Shown here: in pieces, positions 18,336-50,800 of the stretch | How positions within the stretch are numbered: position 1 is the first letter of the stretch | How the letters are laid out: the number at the start of each line of letters is the position of its first letter | Source: Magnetococcales bacterium | Lineage (GTDB): Bacteria > Pseudomonadota > Magnetococcia > Magnetococcales > UBA8363 | Reading direction: 5' to 3' | Length of the DNA: 64,000 nucleotides | Assembly (NCBI GenBank): GCA_015228815.1 | Contig: JADGCV010000023.1 | Span: 1 to 64,000, forward strand | Program-made: the position numbers and the translations under genes | Notes under the pieces: model-generated | What the model was told of the DNA's origin: nothing | Databases searched by the model: none | What the model saw: the letters and a program-made list of their open reading frames with translations, nothing else

Positions 18336-19376
18336 ATGAACGCACCGGGTGAACCTTCAATCGCGATACTCCTCGCCTTCGGCGCCTCCTGGGCGTGGCT
18401 GGGTCTCCTTCGCCCCCTGGCCCCAGCGATGGGATTGCTGGATCGTCCGGGCGGTCGCAAACAACATTCCCACCCGACCCCCATGGTCGGCGGCATCGCC
18501 ATGTTCCTGTCCTTCTGGCCAGGGGTATTCCTCCTCGACCTCCCGCCAACCCCGATCCAACGCCTGTTCCTCGTCACCCTGCTCGTCATCGTCATCGGCG
18601 CCTGGGATGATGCCCGGAAACTGCGCGTCCGCCATCGCATCGCCGCGGAACTGGTGACGGGACTCCTCCTTTGCGCCGGTGGCGGCGTCACCGTCGTCAC
18701 CCTGGGCAACCTGCTCGGTCTGGGAACCCTCGACCTGGGCATCCTCGCCGTCCCCTTTTCGGTCGTCTGTTTCATCGGCGTCATCAACGCCGTCAACATG
18801 GCCGATGGCATCGATGGTCTGGCGGCGGGAACCTGTCTCGTCTCCACCATCATCATGCTCACGTTGTCCTGGTGGCGCCACCGCTTCGCCGAAGCCTGGA
18901 TCCTGGCCCTCCTCGTCGCCGCCCTGATCCCCTTCTTCTGTCTCAACGCCCGCCTGTTCACCAACAAAGCCCTCGTGTTCCTCGGAGATGCGGGCAGCCT
19001 GTTTTTGGGAACGACCATGGCCTTCTTCACCATGACCCTCTCCCAGGGAGAAAACCCCGCCTTCAAACCGGTCGTCGCCCTCTGGCTGATCGCGGTGCCG
19101 CTGATCGACATGTTCGCCTCCTTCCTGAGACGCCTCCTGGCCGGTCGTTCGCCATTCTCTCCCGACCGGCATCATGCCCACCATCTTCTGCGGCAACTGA
19201 AATTCAGTGAAAAAAGCGCCACCGGAATCCTCATGGCAACAACCTTCACCCTCGCCATCCTCGGAGTCGTCCTGGAACACCTCGGCGTCCCGGAAGTACT
19301 GATGTTTCTGTCGCTGCTGCTGTTGTACGCCCTCTATTGCGCGTTCACCATCCACTTTTGGCAACGCCATGTCTGA
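18336..19376 (+). CDS. Polyprenyl-phosphate glycosyl-1-phosphate transferase, WecA/MraY family
   Basis: 346 residues, about ten membrane helices. Transfers a sugar-1-phosphate (GlcNAc-1-P in WecA) from UDP-sugar to undecaprenyl phosphate and so starts repeat-unit synthesis. Key motifs: the cytoplasmic GAWDDARKLRVRHR with the DD pair, NAVNMADGIDGLAAG, the catalytic FLGDAGSLFLG and the His-rich loop SPDRHHAHHLL, which is WecA-like rather than MraY-like. It opens the exopolysaccharide operon, overlapping the next gene by 8 bp. Exact sugar not predictable. Confidence 0.88.
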   Translation: MNAPGEPSIAILLAFGASWAWLGLLRPLAPAMGLLDRPGGRKQHSHPTPMVGGIAMFLSFWPGVFLLDLPPTPIQRLFLVTLLVIVIGAWDDARKLRVRHRIAAELVTGLLLCAGGGVTVVTLGNLLGLGTLDLGILAVPFSVVCFIGVINAVNMADGIDGLAAGTCLVSTIIMLTLSWWRHRFAEAWILALLVAALIPFFCLNARLFTNKALVFLGDAGSLFLGTTMAFFTMTLSQGENPAFKPVVALWLIAVPLIDMFASFLRRLLAGRSPFSPDRHHAHHLLRQLKFSEKSATGILMATTFTLAILGVVLEHLGVPEVLMFLSLLLLYALYCAFTIHFWQRHV

Positions 19377-20577
19377 ACACCGCATCCTTCACCCGCTTCC
19401 CGGATCGATTCCCCCCCGGCGGGCCATCCCCGGAATCCTCCTGCTCCTGTCATCGATCCTCGGTCCCGCGCGGCAAGGATTCGCCGATGAACCGCGTGGC
19501 ATTCCCGTGGGCATCTTCAGGACCAAACCCAAGGTGACCCTGTCAAGCACCTGGGAAGACAACATCTACAAATCGGAAAACAATCCAACCCATGACTTCA
19601 TCACCGGCATCGAACCCGAAATCACCCTGGTCACCCACTGGCGCAAGGACCGCTACCAGATTTCCTGGAAGGGAAAACATCAGGATTACCTGAACCATAA
19701 CCGCGAAGATCGCACCGATCATACCCTCGCCGCCACGGCGGAATGGTCGCCAAACCGCAAAACGGTCCTCAACGTCGAATATCAGTTCAAGGATTCCCAT
19801 GACGAACGCGGCGCCCCCGGTACCGGTACGGTCAATCCCGCCACCCCGCCCAACGAATGGTTCGAAAACATACTCTCCGCTTCCGCCCAGTGGACCTCGG
19901 GACGCTTCAGGACGGTGCTCGATCTGGAACGGGGCTTCAAGGATTCGCAAAACAACGGTCAATCCCTTCAGGACCGCTATTGGGATGCCGTCGATCTGAC
20001 CCTCATGTTTGCCCTCGCCCCAAAAACAAAACTGTTGGTGGAAACCGGATTGAAGGACATCACCTACGACACCAATCCGCAAAACAACAGCCTCGAAAGC
20101 CGCATCCTCGCCGGCGTCACCTGGTCCGCCACCGCCAAAACCGAGGGGGGCTTCAAAATCGGCGCCATGCACAAGGAAATGGACGACGAAAACAAACCCG
20201 ATGGCAATGGCATCACCTTGTCCAGCGATGTCACCTGGAAACCCCTCTCCCGCTCCATGGTCCACCTCCTGGCCAAACGCGGGTTTGACGAGGGAGAAAC
20301 AGGCGCGGAACATTTCATCGCCACCGATTTCAAACTCGACGCCAGCCATGATATTCGTCCAAAAATAAAACTCAAGGGAGACATGGGCTTCAACAATTCC
20401 GACTATGCCGGATCGAAGGACGAAGACTTGTGGACCGCAGGCATCGGTCTTGACTATAAATTACCCAAGTGGTTTTTCGTCAGTGGACGCATCGGCCACA
20501 GCAGCAAAAACTCGACCGAGGCGGATGCCGATTACGACAGCGATCTGTTGACGATCGCCCTGACCGGATCCCTGTGA
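19369..20577 (+). CDS. Outer-membrane beta-barrel protein of the exopolysaccharide operon (BBP2-like)
   Basis: 402 residues. After a cleavable signal (LLLLSSILGPARQGFA) the sequence is almost wholly amphipathic strands ending in alternating aromatic residues, with regularly spaced ...NVEYQFKDSHDE..., TVLDLERGFKDSQNN and TKLLVETGLKDITYD hairpins. This resembles the putative beta-barrel porin 2 family that accompanies exosortase or EPS loci. Likely role: porin or anchoring partner for polysaccharide secretion. It overlaps the preceding transferase and precedes wza by 9 bp. No strand ends in a canonical final Phe (it ends TGSL). Confidence 0.72.
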   Translation: MSEHRILHPLPGSIPPRRAIPGILLLLSSILGPARQGFADEPRGIPVGIFRTKPKVTLSSTWEDNIYKSENNPTHDFITGIEPEITLVTHWRKDRYQISWKGKHQDYLNHNREDRTDHTLAATAEWSPNRKTVLNVEYQFKDSHDERGAPGTGTVNPATPPNEWFENILSASAQWTSGRFRTVLDLERGFKDSQNNGQSLQDRYWDAVDLTLMFALAPKTKLLVETGLKDITYDTNPQNNSLESRILAGVTWSATAKTEGGFKIGAMHKEMDDENKPDGNGITLSSDVTWKPLSRSMVHLLAKRGFDEGETGAEHFIATDFKLDASHDIRPKIKLKGDMGFNNSDYAGSKDEDLWTAGIGLDYKLPKWFFVSGRIGHSSKNSTEADADYDSDLLTIALTGSL

Positions 20578-20586
20578 TGAAATTCC

Positions 20587-21183
20587 ATGGTCGCCGCACT
20601 CCGCACGGTTAGATGGACGCTCCGATCCGGCCCGCGATTGCTGCTGTTGGCGTTGGCGAAACTGGCCCTTGTGTGGTGTTTCGTCCAGTTGGCGGTGATG
20701 GCGGGGCCGGAAAACCTGGAAGAGAGCGATTACCGCCTGGGGGCCGGAGATGTCATTCAGATTACCGTCAACGATGAACCCGACCTGACCCTTCAGTCCA
20801 AGATTTCGCTCAATGGCAAAATTTCCTTTTCCTTCCTCGGCGAAATCCATGTCTCGGGACTGACCGTCAAGGAATTGGAGGAACTCCTGCGGGCCAAACT
20901 TCTGGACGGCTACCTATTGAAGCCGGTCGTTTTCGTCTCGATCGTCGAACACCGGATCTACTTTGTCAACGGCGAGGTGGACAAGGCGGGCGGCTACCCC
21001 TTCAAGCCCGGTCTGACCGTCCGCAAAGCGGTCGTTCTGGCCGGGGGGTTCACCGAGCGGGCCGACCGCGACCGGATTGTCGTCATCCGCGGCAACGACC
21101 CGTTATACAAGGAACGGCCCATCGGCATGGACGACCGGATCTATCCCGGGGATATTCTGACCATTCAGGAAAGTTTCTGGTAG
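20587..21183 (+). CDS. Polysaccharide export protein, Wza/Poly_export-SLBB family
   Basis: 198 residues. Hydrophobic signal at residues 15-40, then the Poly_export domain DYRLGAGDVIQITVNDEPDLTLQSKISLNGKISFSFLGEIHVSGLTVKELE and an SLBB domain (IYFVNGEVDKAGGYPFKPGLTVRKAVVLAGG). It is shorter than E. coli Wza (379), with one SLBB repeat and no C-terminal barrel helix, as in many GumB-like proteins. I see no clear lipobox. The outer-membrane pore may therefore be completed by the preceding beta-barrel. Adjacent to the Wzc-type kinase. Confidence 0.88.
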   Translation: MVAALRTVRWTLRSGPRLLLLALAKLALVWCFVQLAVMAGPENLEESDYRLGAGDVIQITVNDEPDLTLQSKISLNGKISFSFLGEIHVSGLTVKELEELLRAKLLDGYLLKPVVFVSIVEHRIYFVNGEVDKAGGYPFKPGLTVRKAVVLAGGFTERADRDRIVVIRGNDPLYKERPIGMDDRIYPGDILTIQESFW

Positions 21184-21192
21184 GAATCGATC

Positions 21193-23607
21193 ATGGACGC
21201 GGTGTCAGACATGGGGGACAACCTTCCGGTGATGGAAACCGGCACGGTCCGCAACCAGCGCCGCATGCTTCCGGCACTGTCGGAGGAGGATCGCGACCAG
21301 GTCGTCCCCCTGCGCCAATACTGGTTGATCGTCCGCAAGCGCAAATGGCAGATCCTGATGGTCGTGTTTCTGATCTTGATGCCAACGGCGGTTCATGTCT
21401 CCTCGCTGGTGCCCCAATACCGTTCCGCGACATCATTGCTCATCGAAAAACAGACGACCAAACTGGTGTCCCTGTCCCTGGGCGACCTTCTGGGGACCGA
21501 TACCGGCGGCAAGGAATACATGCAAACCCAGTTGGAACTGCTCAAAAGCCGCAATCTGGTCGAGGAGGTGATCCGCAAGGAACGCCTGGACCTGGCCGCC
21601 GAATTCAATCCCAAACCCAAAAAAGGACGCAGCGGATGGAATGCCCATGATTGGATTCCAAAAAATTTGCGCGATTATCTCCCCGCCGAAGCCAAAATCC
21701 AACCCACGCCCCAATTGGGCAACCTTCAGGAAGCCAACCAGTTCGACAATCTGGTCACCGCGGTAACCAGTCGCATCGGTGTCGCGCTGGTCACCAACAG
21801 CCAACTCGTCATCGTCAGTTTCGTGGCGGAAGACCCGGAACTTGCCGCCCGTGGCGCCAATGCGGTGGCGCAAACCTACATCGATCAGCAACTGGAAGCC
21901 AAACTCCAGGTGACGCAACATGCCGCCAACTGGCTCATGAAACGGCTGGAAGGATTGCGCGCCGCCCTGGAAGAATCGGAAAAAAACCTCCAGACCTATC
22001 GCGAGGAAACAGGTCTGGTGGGTACCGAAGACAAGGAAAACATGGTGTCGCAGCAATTGGACGCCATCAACGTCCAGTGGGTCCGGGTGCAGACAAAAAA
22101 GAGCGAAACAAAAGCCCGATATGTCAAATTGCAGGAAATGCTCAAGGAATTCGGCAACAACCTCATCGACATGCCCGTCGATGACAGTCCACTGCTCGTC
22201 AGCCTCAAGGAGGAAAAACACAAGGCGGAACTGAAAGTCAGTGAATATTCGGAACGCTACGGCCCCAAACATCCCAAAATGATCCGCGCCCAGAACGAAC
22301 TGACTGCCATCACCGAAAAAATCACCGACGAGGTCAAACGATCCATCGAACGGATGAACCAGGAATACAACGTCGTCGATGCCCAGGAACGGCAACTGGC
22401 ACTGCAATTGGACAAACAAAAACAATCGGTCCAGGAATACCAGCAAAAAGCCTTCAAACTCGGCAAACTGGAACGCGAAACCGAGGCCAACCGCCAGCTC
22501 TACGACCTGTTTCTCAAACGTTTCAAGGAGGCCGGGGTCATCGAGGGAATGGAAGGGGCCAACGCCCGCATCGTCGATTCGGCCAGACCCCCCCAGTCAA
22601 GTTTCAAACCCAACAAAGGCAGAACCATGATGCTGGCCGGTCTGGTCGGATTGGCCATCGGGCTGTTGTTGGCGTTCACCCTCGAATACATGGATCGGAG
22701 CATCAAGACCCCCGAACAACTGGAAACCGCCTCGGGATTGCCCATCTTCGCCATCCTCCCATTGTTGCGCCTCAACAAGAAAGACAACATCGCCCCCGAG
22801 GAAATGGTGGCGGAACAACCCAAATCAACCTACGCCGAAGCGGTCCGCGGCATTCGTACCGGCATTCTTTTTGCGGACATCGACCATACCAATCAGGTGA
22901 TCATGATCACCTCCGCCGTTCCGGAAGAGGGAAAGACAACCGTTTCGGTCAATCTGGCCCAGGCCTTCTACCAGGCGGGAGACCGGGTCCTCCTCGTCGA
23001 GGCGGACCTGCGCCGTCCCCGGCTGGGCAAGGTCTTCAAGGGCCAATCCACCCAGGGAGTCACGGGATTGCTGGCACAACACGGTTCCATCGGACACCAG
23101 GATCCCTTTTCCCTTCATCCGGAAAGGGGCAGCCAATCCACTCGTTCCACGCTCGATCGGGATCGAATTCGAAACGAAATCATCCAATCCATCCATGGAC
23201 TGCACGTCCTCCTCGCCGGACCGATCCCCCCCTTCCCCAGCGAAATCCTCGCCTCCCAACGCTGGATGGACATGCTGGAACTGCTGCGACAAGATTATGA
23301 TCGGATCATCATCGACGCCCCGCCAACCCTGATGGTCACCGATTCGCAAATCCTCGGCGCCCGCGCCGATGGCGCCATCCTGGTGGTCCATTCCTCCAAG
23401 ACAACACTGGAAATGGCCCTGGCGGCCCTCAAACAACTGTATCAGTCCCATGTGCCGATGATGGGATGTGTGTTGAACCATGTCGATATGAAAAAATTGA
23501 TGTATTACAGCGGCGGCTATGGATACGGTTACGGCTATGGATACGGTTACGGCTACAAACGCGGTTATTACGGCGAGGCGGAACCATCGGTTCCGGTAAA
23601 CGGGTGA
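21193..23607 (+). CDS. Polysaccharide co-polymerase with BY-kinase domain (Wzc-like)
   Basis: 804 residues. Order: cytoplasmic N-tail, TM1 near residues 45-75, a long periplasmic coiled-coil Wzz region with ERYGPKHPKMIRAQNEL, the Pro-Gly TM2 near 475-500 (MMLAGLVGLAIGLLLAFTLEYMD), then a BY-kinase: Walker A TSAVPEEGKTTVSVN, Walker A' VEADLRRPRLGK and Walker B RIIIDAPPTL. The tail holds a striking Gly-Tyr repeat, GYGYGYGYGYG, which is the autophosphorylated Tyr cluster of this family. It sets chain length by phosphorylation cycling. ATG at 21193, 9 bp behind the export gene. Confidence 0.92.
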   Translation: MDAVSDMGDNLPVMETGTVRNQRRMLPALSEEDRDQVVPLRQYWLIVRKRKWQILMVVFLILMPTAVHVSSLVPQYRSATSLLIEKQTTKLVSLSLGDLLGTDTGGKEYMQTQLELLKSRNLVEEVIRKERLDLAAEFNPKPKKGRSGWNAHDWIPKNLRDYLPAEAKIQPTPQLGNLQEANQFDNLVTAVTSRIGVALVTNSQLVIVSFVAEDPELAARGANAVAQTYIDQQLEAKLQVTQHAANWLMKRLEGLRAALEESEKNLQTYREETGLVGTEDKENMVSQQLDAINVQWVRVQTKKSETKARYVKLQEMLKEFGNNLIDMPVDDSPLLVSLKEEKHKAELKVSEYSERYGPKHPKMIRAQNELTAITEKITDEVKRSIERMNQEYNVVDAQERQLALQLDKQKQSVQEYQQKAFKLGKLERETEANRQLYDLFLKRFKEAGVIEGMEGANARIVDSARPPQSSFKPNKGRTMMLAGLVGLAIGLLLAFTLEYMDRSIKTPEQLETASGLPIFAILPLLRLNKKDNIAPEEMVAEQPKSTYAEAVRGIRTGILFADIDHTNQVIMITSAVPEEGKTTVSVNLAQAFYQAGDRVLLVEADLRRPRLGKVFKGQSTQGVTGLLAQHGSIGHQDPFSLHPERGSQSTRSTLDRDRIRNEIIQSIHGLHVLLAGPIPPFPSEILASQRWMDMLELLRQDYDRIIIDAPPTLMVTDSQILGARADGAILVVHSSKTTLEMALAALKQLYQSHVPMMGCVLNHVDMKKLMYYSGGYGYGYGYGYGYGYKRGYYGEAEPSVPVNG

Positions 23608-23699
23608 CACGGTTGGCCGACGCATCTTCCCCCTTCAAGACCCCATTACCTGCAGCCGACGATCGCCTCCGGTCATCGGACGAAGCGCGGACACGTCTC

Positions 23700-24401
23700 A
23701 TGAAGCAAATCCCGCGGCTTTTCCCATGGTTGCTGTTGGTCACAAGCCTCGCCCTGACCGTGGGGGCGGCCATCCATCTGGTCGCCGAACTGTGGGTCAA
23801 CCCGGCACGCCACCTGATCCAGCACATCGGCAGCCCCGCCACTGCCAACGCCCGCAAGATCGATGAGGAATCCTGGTCGCACGCCATCTCTTCATTGCAA
23901 TCGGCCCGATTCCTGGTTCCCGGAAACGCCGAATACCACATGTGGAACGCCTGGCTCCATCAACGCCGCGCCGAAGGCTTCCCCCCCTGGTCCGACGCGG
24001 CCAAAACGGCGCTGCGGGTCGCCGAAACCTCCTATGGCGACGCGCTCCGCCAGCGCCCCTCGTGGGGATTGCTCTGGATCAACCGCGCCCAGGTCCGCGT
24101 CCGCCTCGGTTCCAGTCCGGACCTGGCCATGGCCGACCTGCAACGCGCCGTTCATTTCGACCCGCGCAATCCCCATGTCGTCAAACAGGCCATCCGTCTT
24201 GGTTTTGTCCTGTGGCACGGGATGGATCCCGAGGAACGCCGCGGATTTTTGTACCTGATCCGAAACAACGTTCATCGCATGCCCTACGACATCATCGACC
24301 TCGCCCGACGCCATGGCCTGCTCGATACCCTCCGTCCCCTCTACGCCACCGATCCCAAACTGAAAGAACTCTGGGAACGTAAACTGGGAGCGGAACAATG
24401 A
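23700..24401 (+). CDS. Membrane-anchored, TPR-like helper protein of the EPS operon
   Basis: 233 residues from ATG 23700: one N-terminal membrane segment (PRLFPWLLLVTSLALTVGAAIHLV), then helical repeats with NAEYHMWNAWLHQRR, LLWINRAQVRVRLGSSPDLAMADLQRAVHFDPRNPHVVKQ, which reads as tetratricopeptide-like. It may start at GTG 23604, overlapping the wzc stop (GTGA). It overlaps the ligase/polymerase by ATGA. In exosortase-type EPS loci, similar proteins accompany the O-antigen ligase; I infer a scaffold role with moderate doubt. Confidence 0.65.
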   Translation: MKQIPRLFPWLLLVTSLALTVGAAIHLVAELWVNPARHLIQHIGSPATANARKIDEESWSHAISSLQSARFLVPGNAEYHMWNAWLHQRRAEGFPPWSDAAKTALRVAETSYGDALRQRPSWGLLWINRAQVRVRLGSSPDLAMADLQRAVHFDPRNPHVVKQAIRLGFVLWHGMDPEERRGFLYLIRNNVHRMPYDIIDLARRHGLLDTLRPLYATDPKLKELWERKLGAEQ

Positions 24402-25849
24402 ACACCCCCCCCGTCATGAATCAACCCGATCCGCCCGGAAAGGATCCCCTCTCCGACCGGTGGGCCTTCCATGGACTTCTGGTGCTGCTCCTTTGGATCC
24501 CCCTTCCCTGGGGATCCAATCGTCCATGGGCCTGGGGTTTGATGGAACTCTGGATCTTCATGATCCTCTTCTTCTGGACCCTGGATCGCCTGCGAAATCC
24601 CCGCCCGTTGGCAGGAGTCTTCGTCCATCACCCCCTGGTGTTCGTGTTGCCGGCCCTGTGGACCGCTCTGCCCCTGTTGCAACTGATTCCCCTGCCCCTG
24701 TCCCTCCTGAAACTGCTCTCCCCCGCCGCCGAGGAAATCGCCCAATTCACCGAAATGACCCAACAGTGGCGGCCCATTTCCATGGATCCCCATCTGACGC
24801 GCATCGCCTGGCTCAAGGGAATGGCCTATCTGGCGGTCTTCTGGCTCACCCTGGTCACCAGCATTTCCCGACCGCGACTGCGGTTGCTGGCCATCACGAT
24901 CTTCTGCTCGGGGGCCCTTCAGGCCATCTGGGGACTCTTGGCCGGCAACCTGTTCTCGCCCATGGGATTGCATGGCACCTTCGTCAACCGCAATCATTTT
25001 GCCGGATTCCTGGAACTGACCATCCCCGTCGGCTTCGGTCTCCTGGTCGCCTGGCTCGATCATCAATCCATGCGCGAGCGGCCAACATGGCGTGAAAGCC
25101 TGGAAGATGCGTTCAACTCCCTGGGAACCGGAAAGGGCATGGTCTCGGTCCTCCTGGTGACCATGTTTCTCGCCCTGTTCCTGTCCCGATCACGGGGTGG
25201 AAGCATCGCCCTCCTGGTGGCACTGTTCCTGGTCAGTTTCCTCGCCAGGCAACGCATGCATCAATCCAGCCGCGAACGCCGTCTGATCCTCCCTCTGCTC
25301 CTGGTGGCGATCATCGCCAGCGCCTGGTTCGGTCTGGAACACCTCGTGGAACGGATGCTCTCCACCCAACTCCTCAAACTGGATCGCCTGGAAATCGCCA
25401 CGAGCGTGATCGACATGATCCGGGATTACCCATGGACCGGTGTCGGCGCCGGCGCCTTCGCCACCCTGTTTCCCATGTACCGCAATCCCTCACTGACCGG
25501 CGAATTCTATGACCATGCCCATAACGATCATCTGGAAATCCTCGCCGAACAGGGAATTGTAGGCTATCTGCTCCTGGCCCTGGCCATGGGTTATGCCTGG
25601 AGAATCATGGGACGGGCCTTCATTCAACGGCGCGACCCCTTTGCCCGGGGAATCCTCCTCGCGGGTTTGGCCGCGACCTTCTCCCTCGAACTCCATGCCC
25701 TGGTCGATTTCAATTTTCACATTCCCGCCAATGCCGTCTATTTCATGGTCGTCATGGCCATGGGACTCCAGGGGGCCTCGATCCAACATCCCAATCCCTC
25801 TTCCAAACGCACCTCCCATGACCGCCCGCCCCAAAATCCGCAACCTTGA
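24398..25849 (+). CDS. O-antigen ligase / Wzy-type polymerase family membrane protein
   Basis: 483 residues with about eleven hydrophobic helices. The large periplasmic loop contains the Wzy_C-type signature: GTFVNRNHFAGFLELTIPVGFGL, ARSRGG-like SRSRGGSIALL, and GVGAGAFATLFPMYRNPSLTGEFYDHAHNDHLEILAEQGIVG, whose AHNDHL with preceding Arg residues marks the O-antigen ligase fold. It either polymerises repeat units or ligates chains in the periplasm. ATGA overlap with the helper gene. Confidence 0.87.
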   Translation: MNTPPVMNQPDPPGKDPLSDRWAFHGLLVLLLWIPLPWGSNRPWAWGLMELWIFMILFFWTLDRLRNPRPLAGVFVHHPLVFVLPALWTALPLLQLIPLPLSLLKLLSPAAEEIAQFTEMTQQWRPISMDPHLTRIAWLKGMAYLAVFWLTLVTSISRPRLRLLAITIFCSGALQAIWGLLAGNLFSPMGLHGTFVNRNHFAGFLELTIPVGFGLLVAWLDHQSMRERPTWRESLEDAFNSLGTGKGMVSVLLVTMFLALFLSRSRGGSIALLVALFLVSFLARQRMHQSSRERRLILPLLLVAIIASAWFGLEHLVERMLSTQLLKLDRLEIATSVIDMIRDYPWTGVGAGAFATLFPMYRNPSLTGEFYDHAHNDHLEILAEQGIVGYLLLALAMGYAWRIMGRAFIQRRDPFARGILLAGLAATFSLELHALVDFNFHIPANAVYFMVVMAMGLQGASIQHPNPSSKRTSHDRPPQNPQP

Positions 25850-25919
25850 AACCAACCCTCGATTCCGGAAAGTCCCATCCCCATGCCGGGGAGCCATCGG
25901 ATACAACGACCTCCAGACG

Positions 25920-27431
25920 ATGATCCGCTCCCGCTCCCTTCAATCCCCGAACCATCGCCGTCCCTCAGCGTTCCCCCTTTTTGCCGGGCTCCTCCTTTTG
26001 CTGTCATCCATCGCCCTCGCCCACGCCGGGGCCCCCGGGGCATTGCGGGGTTCCCTTTCCATCGAAGAGTCGGCGCGACAATGGCTCGATTGGGTTGAAC
26101 ATCATGTTCCGCCTCTGAGGCATCCCCGAGGAAAACGCTGGCCTCTGGTCACCTGGCTCGGTCCGGAACACCTTCCCCTGACCCCTGAACAGGCAAACCT
26201 CCTGTTGGCCCGCGGATTGACCCAACATCTGGAAATCGATGTCGCCATGATTCCGGCGGCCAAGATCCTGCAAGCCGCCGGATCGCCCGTCATCCTCATG
26301 GAGGGAAAACGGGGACCTTGGCCCTATGACCAGGGCGGCGATCCCACCCTCTGGAGCCACGATCACCCCGACAATCTTCCCGTTCCCGATTCCTGGCGCA
26401 CCATCCCCTCTCCGGGCCTCTTCCAGGGATGGGCCAGAGCGGCGGACCAGCTGCGTCACACCCTCCAGGAATTCAAAAACCAGGGGGTGACCATCGACGG
26501 CCTGTGGCTCGATCATGAAGGACAGCCCAGCCAGGCCGCCTATCTTCCCGCCCTCTTGTCCCCCCGCACCCGGTCCATTCTGCCCCGTGGCGCCCTGAAA
26601 GACGAACCTTCATTCGCCATCTTCCGGCGACAACTCTGGATGCAACTCCTCTCCGCCTACATCGCCGCCCCGGCGCGGGAAATCTTTCCCGCCATCGCCG
26701 TCACCAACTGGGTCGCCGCCCTTTCCACCCCTGAACACCCCCTCTACGGGTGGGACGACCGCCCTCATCCCCTTACCGGTCCGACCCTGATGACCCATTC
26801 CGCGCCGCTCGCCTATGGTGTGGATACCTATCTCCTGACCGTCCGCGACAAGGAAAAGCCCCTCGATGCCGCCATGGTTGACCGTCTGTTCACCCATCTG
26901 CTGCTGCGGCAGGTCTCCGAGGATGCCTTCAACCGAACCCGCCTCGCACCCCACCTCGGGTCCCTTCCCTGGGTCGCCCGCCGCGTGGTCGATCATCCCG
27001 ACACCACCACCCCAGCTCTAAGCCGTTCCACCTACCGGGAAATCCTGCGGCACCTCTGGCTGCGCGGCATCGATGGCATGCAGGTCTTCAATGTCGGTCC
27101 CGGCGGCGCCAACGATCCACTGGCCCGCGAGGAAATCCTCGATGCCCAGGCCGTCTACGACGAAATGCTCGCTTTTCGTCCCTTTCTCGAAGAGGGGACC
27201 GTCATGAATCTTGACAATCCCGGTCCACGGGATGAAACCATCGTCTGGTCCGGGCTCAGACGGCGCAACCAAGCGCTGATTCGCCTCTTCTTCCACGGCA
27301 GGGGACATCAAACCCGTTCCATCGAACCCTGGCCCGGGCAAAAGGTCTCCCTGACGACCTCTTCCTCCGGAACGACCTGCCTCCTGACACGAAAAACAAA
27401 ACCCGAGGACATCCAGATCGATTGTAATTAA
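25920..27431 (+). CDS. Secreted protein with putative glycoside-hydrolase-like domain
   Basis: 503 residues. Signal peptide SAFPLFAGLLLLLSSIALAHAGAP. The body shows alternating strand-helix stretches with VTIDGLWLDHEGQP, IFPAIAVTNWVAAL, GIDGMQVFNVGPGG and, near the end, a beta-sandwich-like IVWSGLRRRNQALIRLFFHGRG, suggesting a TIM barrel with a small C-terminal domain. The Asp-His-Glu in LWLDHEG could supply acid residues. I could not name the family. Position after the polymerase suggests trimming or release of the polymer. ATG at 25920 is chosen for the signal peptide; 70 bp follow the preceding stop. Confidence 0.6.
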   Translation: MIRSRSLQSPNHRRPSAFPLFAGLLLLLSSIALAHAGAPGALRGSLSIEESARQWLDWVEHHVPPLRHPRGKRWPLVTWLGPEHLPLTPEQANLLLARGLTQHLEIDVAMIPAAKILQAAGSPVILMEGKRGPWPYDQGGDPTLWSHDHPDNLPVPDSWRTIPSPGLFQGWARAADQLRHTLQEFKNQGVTIDGLWLDHEGQPSQAAYLPALLSPRTRSILPRGALKDEPSFAIFRRQLWMQLLSAYIAAPAREIFPAIAVTNWVAALSTPEHPLYGWDDRPHPLTGPTLMTHSAPLAYGVDTYLLTVRDKEKPLDAAMVDRLFTHLLLRQVSEDAFNRTRLAPHLGSLPWVARRVVDHPDTTTPALSRSTYREILRHLWLRGIDGMQVFNVGPGGANDPLAREEILDAQAVYDEMLAFRPFLEEGTVMNLDNPGPRDETIVWSGLRRRNQALIRLFFHGRGHQTRSIEPWPGQKVSLTTSSSGTTCLLTRKTKPEDIQIDCN

Positions 27432-42783: not shown

Positions 42784-42885
42784 GGGATGCACACCTGTAT
42801 CGTGTATTGAAAATTTTGGAACCATCCGACATGGACACGCGCATGTCTCGGGAAAGGGACAACCCAATCATTGTGGAGGAGCACC

Positions 42886-43476
42886 ATGAAGTTCAAACAC
42901 GGATTTCCGGCATTCCGGATGATTCTGGCCTGTAGCGCGCTCGCCATGGTCACCTGGATCATGGCCCCCCTGCCCAACGCCTTTGGGACGGGGTACTGGA
43001 CCTATCCCGAAAACGGGTCGGACAGGATGCAACGGATTCAGGAATTGAATGGCGCACTGGAAGGACTGAGCGCTGCCCATGTCCAGCAACAGATGGCGAT
43101 CGGTCAGGGCCAGAAGGCGCTCGCCGACACCGAGGCGGAACTGGCCGCGGCACGCAAAGCCCTGGTTTCCGAGGAGCGTCCCGTCACCGAAGCGCTCAAT
43201 CAATACCGCAAGGCCCAGGAACTGTCCCTCGTCGATCCCCTGATTTCCACGGAACAGCAACGACTGGCGGTCGTCAAGGCCAAGGAAGCCCATGCCGCCA
43301 CCATCAACAAACGCAAGGGACAAATCGAGACCCTCGAAGGGAGAATCCCCTTGATCCGCACCGACATGGAGCGGGGGCGGCAGCAATTGAACGTCATTCT
43401 GCAACAGATCGATGCGGTCATCAAGCAACGCGATGAAGTGGCGGAACATGTATTCCTGAAAAATGTCGCCAACTGA
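42886..43476 (+). CDS. Secreted coiled-coil protein of unknown function
   Basis: 196 residues. Signal peptide (ILACSALAMVTWIMAPLPNAFG), then a short GTGYWTYPENGSDRMQ leader and a long alpha-helical, Gln/Ala/Glu-rich stretch (residues 50-190) with heptad-like spacing and no Cys. It could form a periplasmic coiled coil. Start ATG 42886 after GGAGGAGC. It is divergent from the PerM gene and convergent with the FecR-repeat gene. No family recognised. Confidence 0.65.
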   Translation: MKFKHGFPAFRMILACSALAMVTWIMAPLPNAFGTGYWTYPENGSDRMQRIQELNGALEGLSAAHVQQQMAIGQGQKALADTEAELAAARKALVSEERPVTEALNQYRKAQELSLVDPLISTEQQRLAVVKAKEAHAATINKRKGQIETLEGRIPLIRTDMERGRQQLNVILQQIDAVIKQRDEVAEHVFLKNVAN

Positions 43477-43559: not shown

Positions 43560-46500
43560 TCACGATGGACTGGGGACGGCGCCATTATCGATGAGCGGAG
43601 AATCAATCTGTTGCCCTGCCGATCCGGCCGACTCGGCGGTACCCGGATCCATTCCCGACCGAACCGCCGTATCCACGATGGCGCGCACCTGATCGGGGGC
43701 TGCCGATGTTGCCCCGACCACCACCTCATAGGGTTGCCCCCCCGCCGCCAAAACCGCCTGAACCACTGCTTGGACCTCACCGCCCGCCCGGATCAGCGCT
43801 GCGGTAACCGCCCCCACATTGGCCCCGGCCTGAACGGCAGCGGTGGCCATGGCGGCAGGATTGGCCCCCGAGGCCAGAGCGGCCTGCGCCACTTCGCGAA
43901 CATCCATCCCCAATCTCGACGCCGCGGCCAGCGCCGCGCCGGCATCCCCCCCGGAAGAAATGATCGCCTGGGTCACCCCCCGTTCCCCAAGCCCCACCTG
44001 CAACGCCCCACTCATGATCGCCCCGGTATCGGCTCCCGCCGCGAGCAACGCCCGGGCGATCTCTCCAGTGTTGCCTCCCGACTGGATCGCCGCCCGGGTC
44101 AGCGCCGCCACATCCCCCCCCATGGCCATGGCCGCGGCGGCGATTTGCGCCGCATCGCCACCCGAGGCGATCGCCGCCGCCGTCACATCGACCGCATTGC
44201 CACCCGCGCCGATGGCCGCCTGGGCCATCGATTCGGGATCCCCCCCCGCACCGATGGCCGCCGCCGCCACCTGCGCCGAATCGGCCCCCGCCGCCACCGC
44301 CGCCGCCACCACCTCGGCGGGATCGATCCCCAATCCGACCGCAGCCTGAGTCAAGGTGGCCGGATCGATCCCCGCCGCCACCGCCGTGGCAATGATGTCG
44401 GCGGCACTCATCGACCCTTCGCGCTGGGCCTGCATGAGAACCACCGCTACCGGAGTTCCCGAGGCAATGGCCGAGGCCATCGCCCGTGATTCGGGAGTCT
44501 GGGGAAGTTGTACCGGTTGTTCGGAGGTCGTCAAGGAACGAGAAGCCTCCCCCGGCGCCGCCGAACCGGTTTGACCGGTTACGGAAGATGAAGAAGCCTG
44601 TGATTCCGGAGTATTTCCCCCCTCGCGCGTCGTGGCTGGGGGAGATTGTTTTCCGTCTTCGACGGGGGCGGTCGCCTTGTCGGCCTTGTCGTCCGCCTCC
44701 CTGGCCTTGTCGCCGCTGGTACGGGCCTGATCGCGAATTTCCTGAGATTGTTTAAGAACCTGAGCGATTTCCGGAGACGATGCCGCCTGGGTGACATTTT
44801 GTTTGAAGGCCTCCGTCCCGATCCCCACCGATCCGGCCACTGCCTTGACGATGGCATCAGCGGCACCAGGGCCTGCGACCTGGACCACCACGGCGGCCAC
44901 CTTGGCCGCCGTTGCGGGATCGAGGGAACGGGCCACTGCCGCCGCCACCTGGGCCGCGGCCTCGCCACCCGCGACCTGAGCGACCGCCGCCGCAACCTTG
45001 AGGGCGTTGCCGGCCCCGGCGCTCGCCATGACTGCCTCGGCCACCTTGGCCGCCGCCGCCGCGCCCGCGACCTGGGTCACCGCCGCCGCGACCAGGGCCG
45101 CCCCGTCCGGCCCCGCCGCCCTGGCCGCCGCATCCGCGACAAGGGCAGCACTGCTCACCCCAGCCGCCAGAGTCACCGCCGCCGCGACATCACCGGCCAT
45201 CTTGGCCCCCGCAACCTCAATAACTTTGGTCGCGATACTCGCCGCCGCTTCCGGGGCTGCTTTGACCGCGGCGGAAGCCACCTGGGCCGTCGCCTCGGCC
45301 CTTATCCCTTCCGGCAATCCCGAGATTGCCGCCCCCGCCGCCACCCCTGCCACCCCCGGATCCGCCGTCGCCGCGGCCTGGGCGATCAGGGATGCGGCAT
45401 CGGCATTGTCGGTCGTCCCCTTGGCGGAAACCGCCGCGCCGACAATGATCGCCGCCACCGCCCCATCCCCCTTGGGCGAGGCCTCCACGGCACTTTTGAC
45501 AATGGAGGCGACCTCCGATCCATCCTTGGCCACCGAGGCGGCCCCCTCGATGACGCCCTTCGTCGAATCCATGGTGTTGCGCCGGTTCGATTCGGCCTGT
45601 TTTTCCTGATGGGCGCCGAGGATGGCCTGGGCATCGGGAACGGTGTCGCGGGCCTCGCGTTGAAATGCCTCTCGTGCCTGAATCTGCCGCGGCGTCTGGT
45701 TTCCCGTCACGGGTTCAAGAATTCCCACCTCCGCCGCCTTGACCAGGAGGGACAGGGATCGCAACCCCTCTTCCGCCGACGCCGCCATGGCCTGCCGGAC
45801 AAACGAACCGGCCAGATGCTCCAACCATTCCCCCAGGGTGGCAACCCATCCCCGGAGCCGTTGCACCAACCAGCGCACGACGGTCCGGAACAGTCCCGAT
45901 AACGAAAAGGAATCGGAAACCGCTTTTTCCCCCCCGGAAATCTGTTGCTCCACCGACAGACGGTTGGCAAGGGCATCGGCGCGAATCTGTTCCTCCGTCA
46001 AAGGCAGTCCTTCGGGGAGTTCGTCACCGATTTCGCCGCGCAACAGCATGATCCCCTGGGCCGCGATCGCCTGGGGCAGGTGTTCGGATGCGACCGGCGG
46101 GTTGGCGGCAGCCGCCGACGCGGCATAATGGCCGTCCGAAAGATCGATCGATCCGGCGCCGGTTTGCATCGTGGCCGTCCCCTTGGGCAGATTGATGAAC
46201 TCCGGAAGGTGTTCATCGACAAACCCTTCCGCCACCGTCCCGCGGACGCCGATGGCGGCAGTGCGCGTCCGCACGGTGACATCGGAATTCTTGGTCTTGA
46301 ACCCCGAGGTCAGACGAAAGGCCCCCTTCTCCACCTTGACCGAGTTTTTGGTTGCGCTGCCGGCGGGGTTGAAGACAAATTCATCGAGGACCACCTTGCC
46401 GTCGGGACCGACGGTGAACGTCGTCCCATCGCGAAACTTGAGGATGGCGACCGCACCCGCCTTGGTGACGATCTCCTCGCCCGCCATGAGTTCATCATTG

Positions 46501-46721
46501 GCCCGGAGGGGTTTGGCCGGTTCTCCCTTGACCACCCCCTGGGCATCGCCGGTGACATGAAAAACCCGTCCGATATGAACCGGTTCCGCCTCGGCCCAGA
46601 CCGGGGCGATTGCCAATGACAGAGATCCCTCCTGGAAAACACTTCCGAAGGCCAACAAGAACGAAAGAAGAAAAGATAACAACCGACCGATCCCGCAACG
46701 CACCCCACCCACGCGCGTCAT
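43560..46721 (-). CDS. FecR-domain exported protein with two Ala-rich tandem-repeat arrays
   Basis: 1053 residues from ATG 46721, after GGGAGAAGG. Signal peptide (GRLLSFLLSFLLAFGSV...WAEAE), then a FecR-type domain at about residues 45-170: HVTGDAQGVVKGEPAKPLRANDELMAGEEIVTKAGAVAILKFRDGTTFTVGPDGKVVLDEF and VRTRTAAIGVRGTVAEGF. A helical segment with LFRTVVRWLVQRLRGWVATLGEWLE follows. Then come about ten 16-residue units, a Ser/Thr/Pro/Gln linker, and about 18 units of 14 residues. There is no anchor or transporter-signal I can recognise at the C-terminus. Divergent (273 bp) from the cytochrome-CHAT-TAXI operon. Role unknown. Confidence 0.75.
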   Translation of the reverse strand: MTRVGGVRCGIGRLLSFLLSFLLAFGSVFQEGSLSLAIAPVWAEAEPVHIGRVFHVTGDAQGVVKGEPAKPLRANDELMAGEEIVTKAGAVAILKFRDGTTFTVGPDGKVVLDEFVFNPAGSATKNSVKVEKGAFRLTSGFKTKNSDVTVRTRTAAIGVRGTVAEGFVDEHLPEFINLPKGTATMQTGAGSIDLSDGHYAASAAAANPPVASEHLPQAIAAQGIMLLRGEIGDELPEGLPLTEEQIRADALANRLSVEQQISGGEKAVSDSFSLSGLFRTVVRWLVQRLRGWVATLGEWLEHLAGSFVRQAMAASAEEGLRSLSLLVKAAEVGILEPVTGNQTPRQIQAREAFQREARDTVPDAQAILGAHQEKQAESNRRNTMDSTKGVIEGAASVAKDGSEVASIVKSAVEASPKGDGAVAAIIVGAAVSAKGTTDNADAASLIAQAAATADPGVAGVAAGAAISGLPEGIRAEATAQVASAAVKAAPEAAASIATKVIEVAGAKMAGDVAAAVTLAAGVSSAALVADAAARAAGPDGAALVAAAVTQVAGAAAAAKVAEAVMASAGAGNALKVAAAVAQVAGGEAAAQVAAAVARSLDPATAAKVAAVVVQVAGPGAADAIVKAVAGSVGIGTEAFKQNVTQAASSPEIAQVLKQSQEIRDQARTSGDKAREADDKADKATAPVEDGKQSPPATTREGGNTPESQASSSSVTGQTGSAAPGEASRSLTTSEQPVQLPQTPESRAMASAIASGTPVAVVLMQAQREGSMSAADIIATAVAAGIDPATLTQAAVGLGIDPAEVVAAAVAAGADSAQVAAAAIGAGGDPESMAQAAIGAGGNAVDVTAAAIASGGDAAQIAAAAMAMGGDVAALTRAAIQSGGNTGEIARALLAAGADTGAIMSGALQVGLGERGVTQAIISSGGDAGAALAAASRLGMDVREVAQAALASGANPAAMATAAVQAGANVGAVTAALIRAGGEVQAVVQAVLAAGGQPYEVVVGATSAAPDQVRAIVDTAVRSGMDPGTAESAGSAGQQIDSPLIDNGAVPSPS
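43632..44474 (-). repeat. Array of about 20 14-residue (42-bp) protein repeats
   Basis: Residues 750-1030 of the FecR protein. In-register units include AAVGLGIDPAEVVA, AAIGAGGDPESMAQ, AAIASGGDAAQIAA and AALASGANPAAMAT. Consensus A-A-[IV]-x-[AS]-G-[GAI]-[DN]-x-x-x-[VIML]-x-x. Sixteen units run without a gap; edge units are degenerate. Only protein-level similarity is high, so the array is old. Confidence 0.85.
44808..45284 (-). repeat. Array of about ten 16-residue protein repeats
   Basis: Residues 480-638 of the FecR protein. Units such as KVAAAVAQVAGGEAAA, QVAAAVARSLDPATAA and KVAAVVVQVAGPGAAD have a consensus [KLQ]-V-A-x-A-V-x-x-x-A-G-x-x-x-A-x. This period is distinct from the 14-residue array further on. 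Confidence 0.8.
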
Positions 46722-46994
46722 CCTTCTCCCGCGATCATGACAATATCCGAAGGAAAACAAATTCCCGATCATGGCCGACCGTTGACGAATGAATTGAAGA
46801 ACCCGAGAATCCGGAAAACAGAAACGACAAAGGACATCCCGACCGACGCCCACCGGATCATAGTATCATGTCACAGTCCGGGATTTCATCATTATTTCCA
46901 CCCGTTTCGTTGACGACAAGGGTATCATCGCGCCACGTTTTTCAGTATTCTTCCATACCAGGAACAACGTCACCCTCCGAATGCACCGTGATCC

Positions 46995-47813
46995 ATGATC
47001 CCAATCCGTACCGTGACCCTGCTGGCATGTTTCTGGCCGTTTTTACCCATTCATGCCGAATCGGACCCCCCCGCCACCCCTTTTCGCCGTTTCCTGACCG
47101 TTCCCGCCCCGTCCAAAAGCCTTGTCGAAAGCTGGAAAAACCAATCCCGTGGCGAACGCGAGGCGGCCTTGCATCTGGTCGGAAATGTCGCGAACGGTCT
47201 GCGGGTCTATCTTGAATCCTGTTCCAACAAATGTCACCTCCCCCACGGTCAGGGTTCGATCAACGGGGAATATCCACAAATCGCCGGGCAGTTGCGCGAG
47301 GTCACCATCAAACAACTGGCCGACATCCGGGCCAAGAACCGCGACAATCCCACCATGTACCGCTTTGCCCTTCCCAGCGAAATCGGCGGGGTTCAGAACA
47401 TGGCGGATGTCGCCGCCTACATCGAAACGATGCCGATGACCCTGGATACCGGCAAAGGCCCCGGCACCGAGCTGGAACTCGGTCGGCGCATTCATGACAG
47501 GGATTGCGCGATCTGTCATGGCGCCAATGGCGAGGGCAAGGCCGAACAGTATTATCCTCTGATCCAGGGCCAGCACTACGAATACATGGTGCGGCAGTAC
47601 CAATGGATTCGCGATGGACGCCGCCGCAATGCCCACCCGATGATGGTGGAACAGATTCAAGGCTACAGCCAACGCGATATTGCCGCGGTCATGGACTTTG
47701 TATCGCGACAGGTCCCCAATGCGGCCAAACTCAAGGGATCGGCTCCGTCCACCCCACCCCCTTCCCCTGTTTCCACTCCCGGGGATGATCCGCGAAAAGA
47801 TGATCTGCTATGA
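46995..47813 (+). CDS. Diheme c-type cytochrome, c553/c4-like, one site CX3CH
   Basis: 272 residues. Signal peptide (VTLLACFWPFLPIHAES). First heme site C76-SNK-C80-H81, then LPHGQGSINGEYPQIAGQ, typical of cytochromes c4/c553 except that the motif is CX3CH, not CX2CH. Second site is canonical, CAICHGANGEG, then YYPLIQGQHYEYMVRQYQ. Axial Met candidates include the MADVAAYIETMP region. It should carry electrons in the periplasm; whether heme 1 attaches is uncertain. It overlaps the CHAT gene by ATGA, and lies divergent from the FecR-repeat gene. Confidence 0.88.
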   Translation: MIPIRTVTLLACFWPFLPIHAESDPPATPFRRFLTVPAPSKSLVESWKNQSRGEREAALHLVGNVANGLRVYLESCSNKCHLPHGQGSINGEYPQIAGQLREVTIKQLADIRAKNRDNPTMYRFALPSEIGGVQNMADVAAYIETMPMTLDTGKGPGTELELGRRIHDRDCAICHGANGEGKAEQYYPLIQGQHYEYMVRQYQWIRDGRRRNAHPMMVEQIQGYSQRDIAAVMDFVSRQVPNAAKLKGSAPSTPPPSPVSTPGDDPRKDDLL

Positions 47814-50800
47814 GGCCCCCCCTTTTTCCAGGCCGTTGGCTGGCTGGCCTCCTGATGGGATTGGTCTTGTGTCTGACCGCGGCGGAGACGGTCGCCGGCG
47901 CCTCTGACCCGCTCGACCAGACGGCACAAAGCGAAGCGGACAAGGGACAGGTGGCATGGGACCAGAAGGAGATTGCCACGGCCCTGGGCCATTTTCTCGC
48001 CGCCCATGCCCTGCGCCCCGACAATCTTGATTATATCCGCAATGCCGGCACCCTCGCCATGATGGCGGGCGATCACGCCGGCGCGTTGGATCTTTTCAGA
48101 AAGGGCATCGAGACCGCGGTCCAGGCGGAGGATCGCGCGACACTGGCCCTGTTTCACGAGCAACTCGCCAAACTCCTGGAGGAATCCCTTCCGGAATGGG
48201 TCGAAAGCCGACTGGCGGCGGCGGAATCCCTCCCGGACACGCCCGAAATCCAGACCGCGGTCGCCGTGTGGAGCGCGCTCATGGAACAGGTCGCCACCCT
48301 GCGCGCCGCGGGAACACCCGACCAGGCACTGCCCCTGGCCAGGGAAGCGATGAAAACCGCCTCGACCCAATTCGGTCCCGATCATCTGGCCACCATCAAC
48401 AGCCTGCGTGAAATGGCGGCGTTGCATACCGAAATGGATCAGGGCGAACAGGCCGGGGCCATCTATCGGCAACTTCTCGAATCGGCCCGGAAATCCTTGG
48501 GGGAAGAACATCCCGAAACCCTTGCCGTCCAACAACAGATTGCCGATTTCGAACACCTGCGCGGCAACGGAGAGACGGCGGAAAAAATTCTGGAACACAT
48601 ACGACACACCCAGACCACAGCCCTTGGCCAGGATCACCCGCTGACCCTGGGGGCGGAGGTCCGATGGGCTTCCTTTCTGATCGGACAGGGACGATTCGCC
48701 GAAGCGGTCGCCATTCTTTCGCCTGTCTGTTCGCGGTATGCCGCCAGTCACGGGGAATGGCATCCCCTTGTTTTCGATTGTCACCGCAGGCATGCCGAGG
48801 CCGCCATGGGCCAGGGAGACATGAAAGAGGCGGAACGCCACTTTCTCCGCGCCCGGGATGCGAGTCGTCTGTCCGGTCCGGACACCGATCCCAAACGAAT
48901 CGAGATTCAAACCGGATTGGCCGAAAGCCTCCGCCTCCAGGCGCGGTTCGACGAGGCGGAAAAAATCCTCGCGTCCCTGCTGGCCCTGCCTCTTTCCAAG
49001 GATGCGCCGGGCGATACGGTTCGATCCCAGATGCTTGGCGCCATGGCCCGTCTGGACGAAGACATGGGCCGCTTCGGGCCGGCGGAGGATCGCTACCGTG
49101 AAGTGTTGGCCCTCGAAAAGAAAACCCTTGGAGAAAACCATCCCAACACCATCGCCACCCAGAGCGACCTGGCGGGACTGTTGCGCCGCAAGGGAGAACT
49201 GGTCCAGGCGGAAAAAATGTTCCTCGATGCCTATGAACGCTTTCGCCGCCTGCTCGGACCACGACATCCCAACACCCTGGTCGCGGCCAACGATTTTTCG
49301 CTGACTCTGGAAGAAGAGGGGCTTTACGAAACCGCCGAACCCTTGTTTCGCATGGTCTACAACCTTTCCAGCGAGGTTTTTGGCGCCGAACACCCGAGCA
49401 CGCTGGCCAATCTGAACAATCTTGCCCTGTTGTACGAAAGCCAGGGCACCTTCGACAAGGCCCAACCTCTTTATGAACAGGCCATCGCCATCGCCCGGAA
49501 GACCCGGGGCGACGGTCATCCCGATACCGTGGCCTTTCTCAACAATCTTGGCTATCTGCACATGTTGCGGGGGCATTTTACCAAGGCGCGGGAAGTATTC
49601 GACGAGGTCTACACCTCCTGGAGCGTCTCCCTGGGCGAGGAACATCAAAAAACCCTCAAGGCATTGAACAATCTGGCCCGGTCCATCCTGGGACAACAAA
49701 AGCCCCAGGAAGCCCTTTCCCTGTTCGAAAAAGCGCTCGGCCTGCGCCGTTCGGTTCTGGGCGATCGACATCCCGATACGCAACGCACCATGCTCGATCT
49801 GGGCCGGACCTTTCTGGCCCAGGGAAAGACCTCCGAGGGCCGGGACCTTCTCGCCCGCACCCTTGAACTGAATGAAACAACCCTGGGGCCGGAACATCCC
49901 TATACCTTCGAAACCCGCAATGCCCTGGCGGAGGCGTTCGAACAGGGCAACGACATGAAGGGGGCCTTTTCGGTACGCAAGGAAGGATTTGTCCGGCGCA
50001 ACCGTTTTCTTGAACGGGTTCTCTGGGTTGCCGGGGCGAATGCCCGCGAGGGATACATTCGCCTGCACCGTCCCGAGCTTGATTCCTTCATCGCGCTGTT
50101 GGCGCGCATGCCGGGGACGGATGAGGAGATCGCCCGGATGGCCCTTGACATCAGCCTGGAACGCAAAGGATTGCTGTTGAAGATTTCCTCGGAGGTTCAA
50201 CAGATCGCCACCCTTGGCCAGGACCCACAACTGGCGCCCCTGGGACAACGGTTGAAAAATCTGCGCAAGAAATTCACCGCCCTGACCCTTTCGGGACCTA
50301 CGCCGCAAACGGGAACGCGCCATCTTTCCTATCTCAATGCCCTTGAAGAAAAAATTGAACGCCTCGAAGGTGAATTGGGACGAGCGAGTCAAAAATATCG
50401 TCAGAGCGTCGCCCCCGTCGGGATCGATGACCTTGTCGCTCATCTGCCGGATCAGAGCCTTCTGGTCGATTTCATCGTCTACCACACCGATGACAAACAG
50501 ATGCTTCTGGCGGCGACCCTGCGGATGGACGAGGATACCCCCCACTTCCAACTGATCACCTACGATGATTTCGACGGCATCAAAACCCTGATCGCCGAAT
50601 TCCGCGAGAGCATCCAAAGCGAGGAATTGGAAGAGGACGAGGTCAAACAGGTCGGCCAGAAGCTGTACCGCCAGTTGTGGGGGCCCATTGCCCATGTGGC
50701 GGGTTCCCTGGAAAAGGTGTTCATCGTTCCCGATGGCCTGCTCAACATTGCCCCGTTCAACGCCCTGGTCAACGAAGAGGAGGAATTTCTCCTGAAGGCG

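Follow-up and report, generated by a model that had tools for sequence, protein, structure and literature searches.

The gene at 43560..46721 (minus strand) encodes an exported-type protein in which a FecR beta-domain is followed by two different helical repeat arrays, both predicted as solenoids. The family of this protein, including stand-alone forms, is tied to composite short-OPX/beta-barrel exopolysaccharide (EPS) operons, a link that is well supported by gene neighbourhoods. The role put forward here, which is held with slightly more confidence than doubt, is that of an exported accessory or solenoid scaffold of Wzx/Wzy-type EPS export through a short OPX and a beta-barrel. The window is the whole stretch of 64,000 nucleotides that was analysed (Magnetococcales bacterium, contig JADGCV010000023.1, positions 1 to 64,000).

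Gene structure and surroundings

The enclosing open reading frame (43560..46853, minus strand) has 1097 aa counted from a GTG, and M45, at 46721, is likely the real start as judged from the ortholog alignment. The region 46590..46721 reads as a Sec-type signal sequence, the orthologs also have hydrophobic N-terminal segments, and no lipobox cysteine was seen in this region. The FecR beta-domain (46116..46577) comes next, followed by array A of about ten 16-residue single-helix units (aa ~512-676, 44826..45320), a Ser/Pro/Gly low-complexity linker whose length differs among orthologs (aa ~729-785, 44499..44669), array B of 14-residue helix-loop units with the C-terminal cap APxQ...A...G.DP (43608..44495) and a C-terminal tail ending in VPSPS (43563..43607), all on the minus strand. 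Two distinct Ala-rich arrays in one exported FecR protein had been claimed in the initial annotation, and autocorrelation, Pfam and AF2 bear this out. The coordinates given there (aa 524-1074) left out the beginning of the helical region as well as the C-terminal tail.

By its layout the gene is monocistronic, convergent with 42871-43476 and divergent from 46995. Genes for a cytochrome c, a TPR-CHAT protein, a coiled-coil-like protein, an AI-2E-family transporter and flagellar export proteins, the last identified from reading the sequences, lie next to it. The exported TPR-CHAT protein (47810-51688), a possible protease partner, adjoins the gene in genus g1 (L037, L038) and in L082. An antisense open frame of 1135 aa over the TPR-CHAT gene (47663-51070, minus strand) was judged spurious.

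The FecR domain

PF04773 matched aa 127-208 with an E value of 7.7e-7 and 29.9 bits, above the gathering score of 24, and the Pfam scan of the 1097-aa frame gave no domain besides FecR. The AF2 model of this part has the FecR beta fold. Foldseek against the PDB returned PupR/FecR-type domains (6ovk and 4m0h, rmsd ~2.6) and the 5ix9 cell surface anchoring domain (rmsd 1.1 over 61 columns). PF04773 also occurs in exported proteins that are not regulatory. The window protein shares the beta-domain fold of its N-terminal part with FecR/PupR cell-surface signalling domains and with 5ix9, but unlike FecR/PupR signalling proteins it is fused to alpha-solenoids and has no anti-sigma region or TM anchor.

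The initial annotation had described the FecR domain as one that normally senses or anchors. With such a domain, whose fold matches the PupR/FecR signalling domains, the protein might sense an envelope signal and control a sigma factor or EPS genes. However, the window protein has neither an anti-sigma N-terminus nor any TM segment downstream of the signal sequence, no sigma factor was noticed among the identified neighbours of the gene (by eye, without a dedicated search), and a FecR domain is missing entirely from the stand-alone homologs. The sensor role is thus unsupported, and signal transduction of the FecR type is very unlikely. This part of the protein is a FecR beta-domain of the usual kind that lacks an anti-sigma region. 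Several further FecR-domain proteins are encoded in the same genome (L002-L006, open frames of 2182-6406 aa), and these are probably giant adhesins.

Two arrays of short helical units

Array A sits inside a longer helical region (aa 408-728). Self-identity over aa 431-680 was 0.34 at lag 32 and 0.30 at lag 16, compared with a maximum of 0.27 in 500 shuffles. AF2 was run on alignments of the window protein and the fetched relatives. The model of the FecR domain with array A reached a pLDDT of 84.9 overall and a pTM of 0.80, array A being mostly above pLDDT 90, and has 15-residue helices with 1-residue breaks at 16-residue spacing over aa ~515-676. These peaks and helices agree with the separate array of about ten 16-residue units that had been described before. 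At the DNA level, TRF reported in array A a weak 48-bp array alone (2.4 copies, 69%).

Array B has 16 units in exact register and ~18 in all. Self-identity over aa 781-1097 at lag 14/28 was 0.29, above all 500 shuffles (maximum 0.20). The AF2 model (pLDDT 86.8, pTM 0.75) contains 21 helices, the central ones of 10 residues with 4-residue loops. Sixteen consecutive 10-residue helices are placed at exact 14-residue spacing (model residues 38-257, corresponding to aa 817-1036) and are flanked by 14/15-residue units and the C-cap. Most helices exceed pLDDT 90, the tail is mostly of low confidence, and residues 306-314 of the model are below pLDDT 50. The earlier count of at least 16 exact repeats of a 14-residue unit therefore holds, and its consensus is that measured over 165 units, [AS]-G-[GA]-[DN]-x3-[VI]-x2-A-A-[IVLM]-x, in another register.

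No repeat was reported by TRF in array B, which is no young repeat at the DNA level. Its units are just 29% identical mutually. Between genera, the units are 42% identical at equal positions versus 28% at unequal positions, and the main difference inside the array is an indel 14 columns long, the exact length of one unit. The positional conservation and the exact indel indicate that array B is old and that its positions are constrained individually. An Ala-rich low-complexity spacer without a fold, retained for its length alone, would have the Ala/Gly-rich composition that array B has, and AF2 can over-predict order in repetitive sequences. However, such a spacer does not fit units that diverge from each other yet are conserved by position, a length difference of exactly one unit, or the high pLDDT across most helices, and it is considered highly improbable. 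The AF2 models of both arrays instead favour ordered helical solenoids over a disordered linker, as had been anticipated.

Comparison with known repeat families

In Pfam and NCBIfam, with E values up to 1, no repeat model covers array A or array B. Besides FecR these scans yielded chance-level matches only, so that a known repeat family for the arrays was rejected, in line with the earlier statement that no named family has these repeats. Neither curated models nor Foldseek placed the arrays in the TPR, Sel1, HEAT, ARM, PPR, ANK or LRV families. No global counterpart of array B was found by Foldseek against the PDB (TM to the query ≤0.27 among the matches listed), and no viral structural counterpart was found at E ≤ 0.001. 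The predicted unit of array B, with 14 residues and 28 per hairpin, is shorter than common curated alpha-solenoid units. A match of NF033682 (LapA retention module) to the relative L062 (E 7e-6) is far below the cut-off and was judged a repeat artefact.

The best PDB sequence matches of the array B profile were the designed toroids 5byo and 4yxz (E 4e-18 and 4e-13). These proteins (dTor_12x31L and dTor_9x31L) are closed, left-handed two-helix toroids. Like array B they have two short helices joined by Gly-containing loops, but they are man-made, with a two-helix unit of 31 residues versus 28 in array B. Single natural array B sequences, unlike the profile, did not match the designed toroids. 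Together with the Foldseek result, this tempers the likeness as proof of fold identity. The FecR-solenoid proteins, which lie outside every tested repeat family, form a new one that may work like known polysaccharide-export solenoids.

Distribution of the family and the C-terminal tail

Two congeners have full-length orthologs with 65-72% identity, and six genomes of a different Magnetococcales genus have them with 36-43%. Three architectures were observed: FecR with array A (such as L021 and L025), FecR with both arrays as in the window, and array B alone (L031, L034, L035, L062, L071-L073 and others). The stand-alone 14-mer proteins include small forms of ~190-310 aa without a FecR domain. 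They match array B in profile comparison (hhalign, 98.3%) and have the same C-terminal cap. Cadherin domains follow array A in the FecR-array A relatives L043 and L017-L019, some of them in very long frames.

Array B is present in 12 of 48 Magnetococcales genomes, and two further weak matches among these were rejected on reading. Among 398 genomes sampled across the phylum, G218 gave the sole further convincing match. Weak array B matches in G012, G014, G167 and G381 were rejected on reading as coiled coils of the chemoreceptor type or as frames that lie antisense to a likely gene, and similarly weak A4 matches came from five further genomes. In the order of G218, nine of 399 genomes match the stand-alone profile, two of the nine more weakly.

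Nearly all members without cadherin domains end in a tail of the type [AP]S[PAG][SAGN] directly before the stop codon. This tetrapeptide is found in the tail of the window protein and at the C-termini of L008-L015, L024, L025, L031, L046, L062 and L071-L073, and in the betaproteobacterium-like stand-alone proteins it is preceded by a Gly run. Among 402 called ORFs, 18 family members and one other protein had such a C-terminus. The conserved tail may act as a signal for docking or sorting.

Linkage to exopolysaccharide operons

In Magnetococcales, 12 of the 27 gene-carrying genomes have a Poly_export gene within 10 kb, where ~0.2 (0.24) would be expected (nominal p 3e-18, a value that ignores shared ancestry). 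The distance is 12-46 kb on the same contig in four further genomes, the window included. Co-occurrence of the gene with BBP2_2 was 23/4/3/18 (Fisher p 1e-6, again ignoring shared ancestry): BBP2_2 occurs without the gene in three genomes, and four carry the gene with BBP2_2 undetected (draft genomes). FecR-solenoid genes adjoin BBP2_2 and Wza in L080, L082, L083 and L084, and follow Wzy_C in L081 and L046. In genus g17 they come after a Sel1 gene and a gene of an unknown family, with glycosyltransferase genes in the region, and some g17 regions also carry polysaccharide deacetylase and FemAB-like genes.

All 11 stand-alone 14-mer loci that were examined, in two orders, have Wzy_C or BBP2_2 in their neighbourhood, in most cases together with Wza and Wzc. 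Wzy_C is adjacent or within ~3 kb at L066, L067, L068 and L114; BBP2_2-Wza-Wzc come next at L076, L077, L078 and L113; BBP2_2 is at the contig end at L115; L065 has a full EPS cluster, and L116 has EPS genes within ~10 kb. As L066 and L067 are closely related, the eleven loci are not all independent. Gene order varies among the loci of the two bacterial orders, which argues against simple inherited synteny. These counts, which ignore phylogeny, provide the genomic linkage across lineages expected of an EPS-system component. A description of FecR-solenoid proteins in EPS operons was not found in the literature, and the systematic link to composite OPX/beta-barrel EPS operons is new and was missing from the initial annotation.

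The window itself contains an EPS operon (18336-27431, plus strand) about 16 kb from the FecR-double-solenoid gene. It starts with a WecA-like phosphoglycosyltransferase (PGT; 18336..19376; PF00953, E 4.9e-32; TIGR02380, E 1.1e-69, below cut-off), followed by an EpsL/VpsM-like outer-membrane beta-barrel BBP2_2 protein of 402 aa (19369..20577; PF10082, E 1.2e-41), a short OPX of 198 aa with Poly_export and one SLBB (20587..21183; PF02563, E 1.5e-22; EpsE/EpsY below cut-off), a Wzc-type polysaccharide co-polymerase/BY-kinase (PCP; 21193..23607; GNVR, Wzz and AAA_31; TIGR01007 above cut-off), a VpsP-family-like protein (23466..24401, with the actual start likely around 23604; NF038257, E 5e-12, below cut-off) and a Wzy_C polymerase/ligase-type membrane protein (24398..25849; PF04932, E 1.7e-23). 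With the short OPX, a type of protein that has no OM-spanning domain, beside the barrel and the PCP, VpsP-like and Wzy_C proteins after them, this is a composite OPX/beta-barrel locus, and its order, PGT-barrel-OPX-PCP-VpsP-Wzy, is the vps-II type order. The last gene (25917..27431) encodes an exported-looking protein of ~504 aa without Pfam or NCBIfam family, homologs of which lie immediately upstream of FecR-solenoid genes, or directly follow them, in L041, L042, L044, L045 and L046. By eye this protein recalls glycosidase-like sequences. Convergent with the operon lies a gene for an exported-looking protein of 635 aa without Pfam family, in which a Cys is followed by a Gly/Ser run (27486-29393).

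That the gene of the window genus lies outside the operon, beside the cytochrome c and TPR-CHAT genes, speaks against the EPS-accessory role. In this genus the gene might have left the EPS system and might work with the exported TPR-CHAT neighbour, for example as its substrate, as the two are side by side in each of the three contexts from g1 that were read (window, L037 and L038) and also in L082. However, the EPS operon is adjacent in L082 too, which shows that the two links are not exclusive, the TPR-CHAT gene was not seen by the gene in other relatives examined, and the EPS operon of the window is on the same contig. Such a departure is improbable, and TPR-CHAT as a family-wide partner was rejected because it was seen only in genus g1 and L082.

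Discussion

The exported-type N-terminus, the FecR beta-domain, the two predicted solenoids, the association with EPS operons and the conserved tail together suggest the EPS-accessory role. The proposed site of the protein is the periplasm or the inner side of the outer membrane. There the FecR domain would dock in the way that FecR/PupR domains dock on outer-membrane partners. As a long scaffold, the solenoids may connect or arrange the co-polymerase, the OPX and the barrel, or may bind the polymer, and this role would parallel that of the TPR solenoids AlgK, PelB, PgaA and BcsC in synthase-dependent export. An exported solenoid encoded beside short-OPX/barrel genes offers itself as a candidate bridge or polymer-binding scaffold, and the extended periplasmic or cell-surface scaffold proposed initially is compatible with these results. 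Against a core role stands the small share of genomes sampled outside Magnetococcales that carry the family, so the family is not a core part of such EPS systems.

The main rival to the periplasmic scaffold is a surface or matrix protein, with the FecR domain holding the N-terminus at the outer membrane and the exposed solenoids binding or cross-linking polysaccharide, as an EPS-matrix scaffold or adhesin. The close fit to the 5ix9 anchoring domain agrees with this, the cadherin-like domains after array A in some relatives fit surface exposure better than a periplasmic location, and the same EPS linkage would be expected. However, no type I or two-partner secretion partner was noticed adjacent to genes of the family, neither a lipobox nor a cell-wall anchor was seen, and the small stand-alone forms have no FecR domain. 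A surface location is thus possible but rather doubtful, and the periplasmic EPS accessory is preferred.

AlgK, PelB, PgaA and BcsC, like the FecR-solenoid protein, are exported alpha-solenoids whose genes accompany those for polysaccharide export and for an outer-membrane beta-barrel. Their units are of the TPR/Sel1 type with 34-36 residues, and their systems have a synthase, whereas the FecR-solenoid protein has single-helix units of 14 and 16 residues, a FecR domain and a Wzx/Wzy-type short-OPX system. The OPX/beta-barrel system including VpsN/VpsM is described in PMC9601211, and composite systems (EpsX/EpsY and VpsM/VpsN) in PMC9601211 and PMC9603273. Like these, the operon near the gene has a short OPX, a BBP2_2 barrel, a co-polymerase and Wzy. 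Compared with the systems described, the FecR-solenoid protein would be an added, lineage-limited component. The word FecR was not found in either paper, nor the word solenoid in PMC9603273.

More tentatively, array B could be a natural alpha-solenoid, with a 10-residue helix and a 4-residue loop per unit, that founds a family of polysaccharide-export scaffolds bridging the periplasm together with the FecR domain and the [AP]SPS tail. The 14-residue helical unit extends the catalogue of natural solenoids, and its sequence pattern resembles that of de novo designed toroids. PMC9601211 points out that with a short OPX it still has to be explained how the periplasm is spanned, and proposes long co-polymerases for this. 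The hand-over of polysaccharide across the periplasm by a short OPX and a barrel has so far only been modelled, and an unnamed solenoid family tied to short-OPX operons in two orders is a concrete candidate part. If the proposal is true, the array B scaffold family would fill the spanning gap raised for short-OPX/beta-barrel systems.
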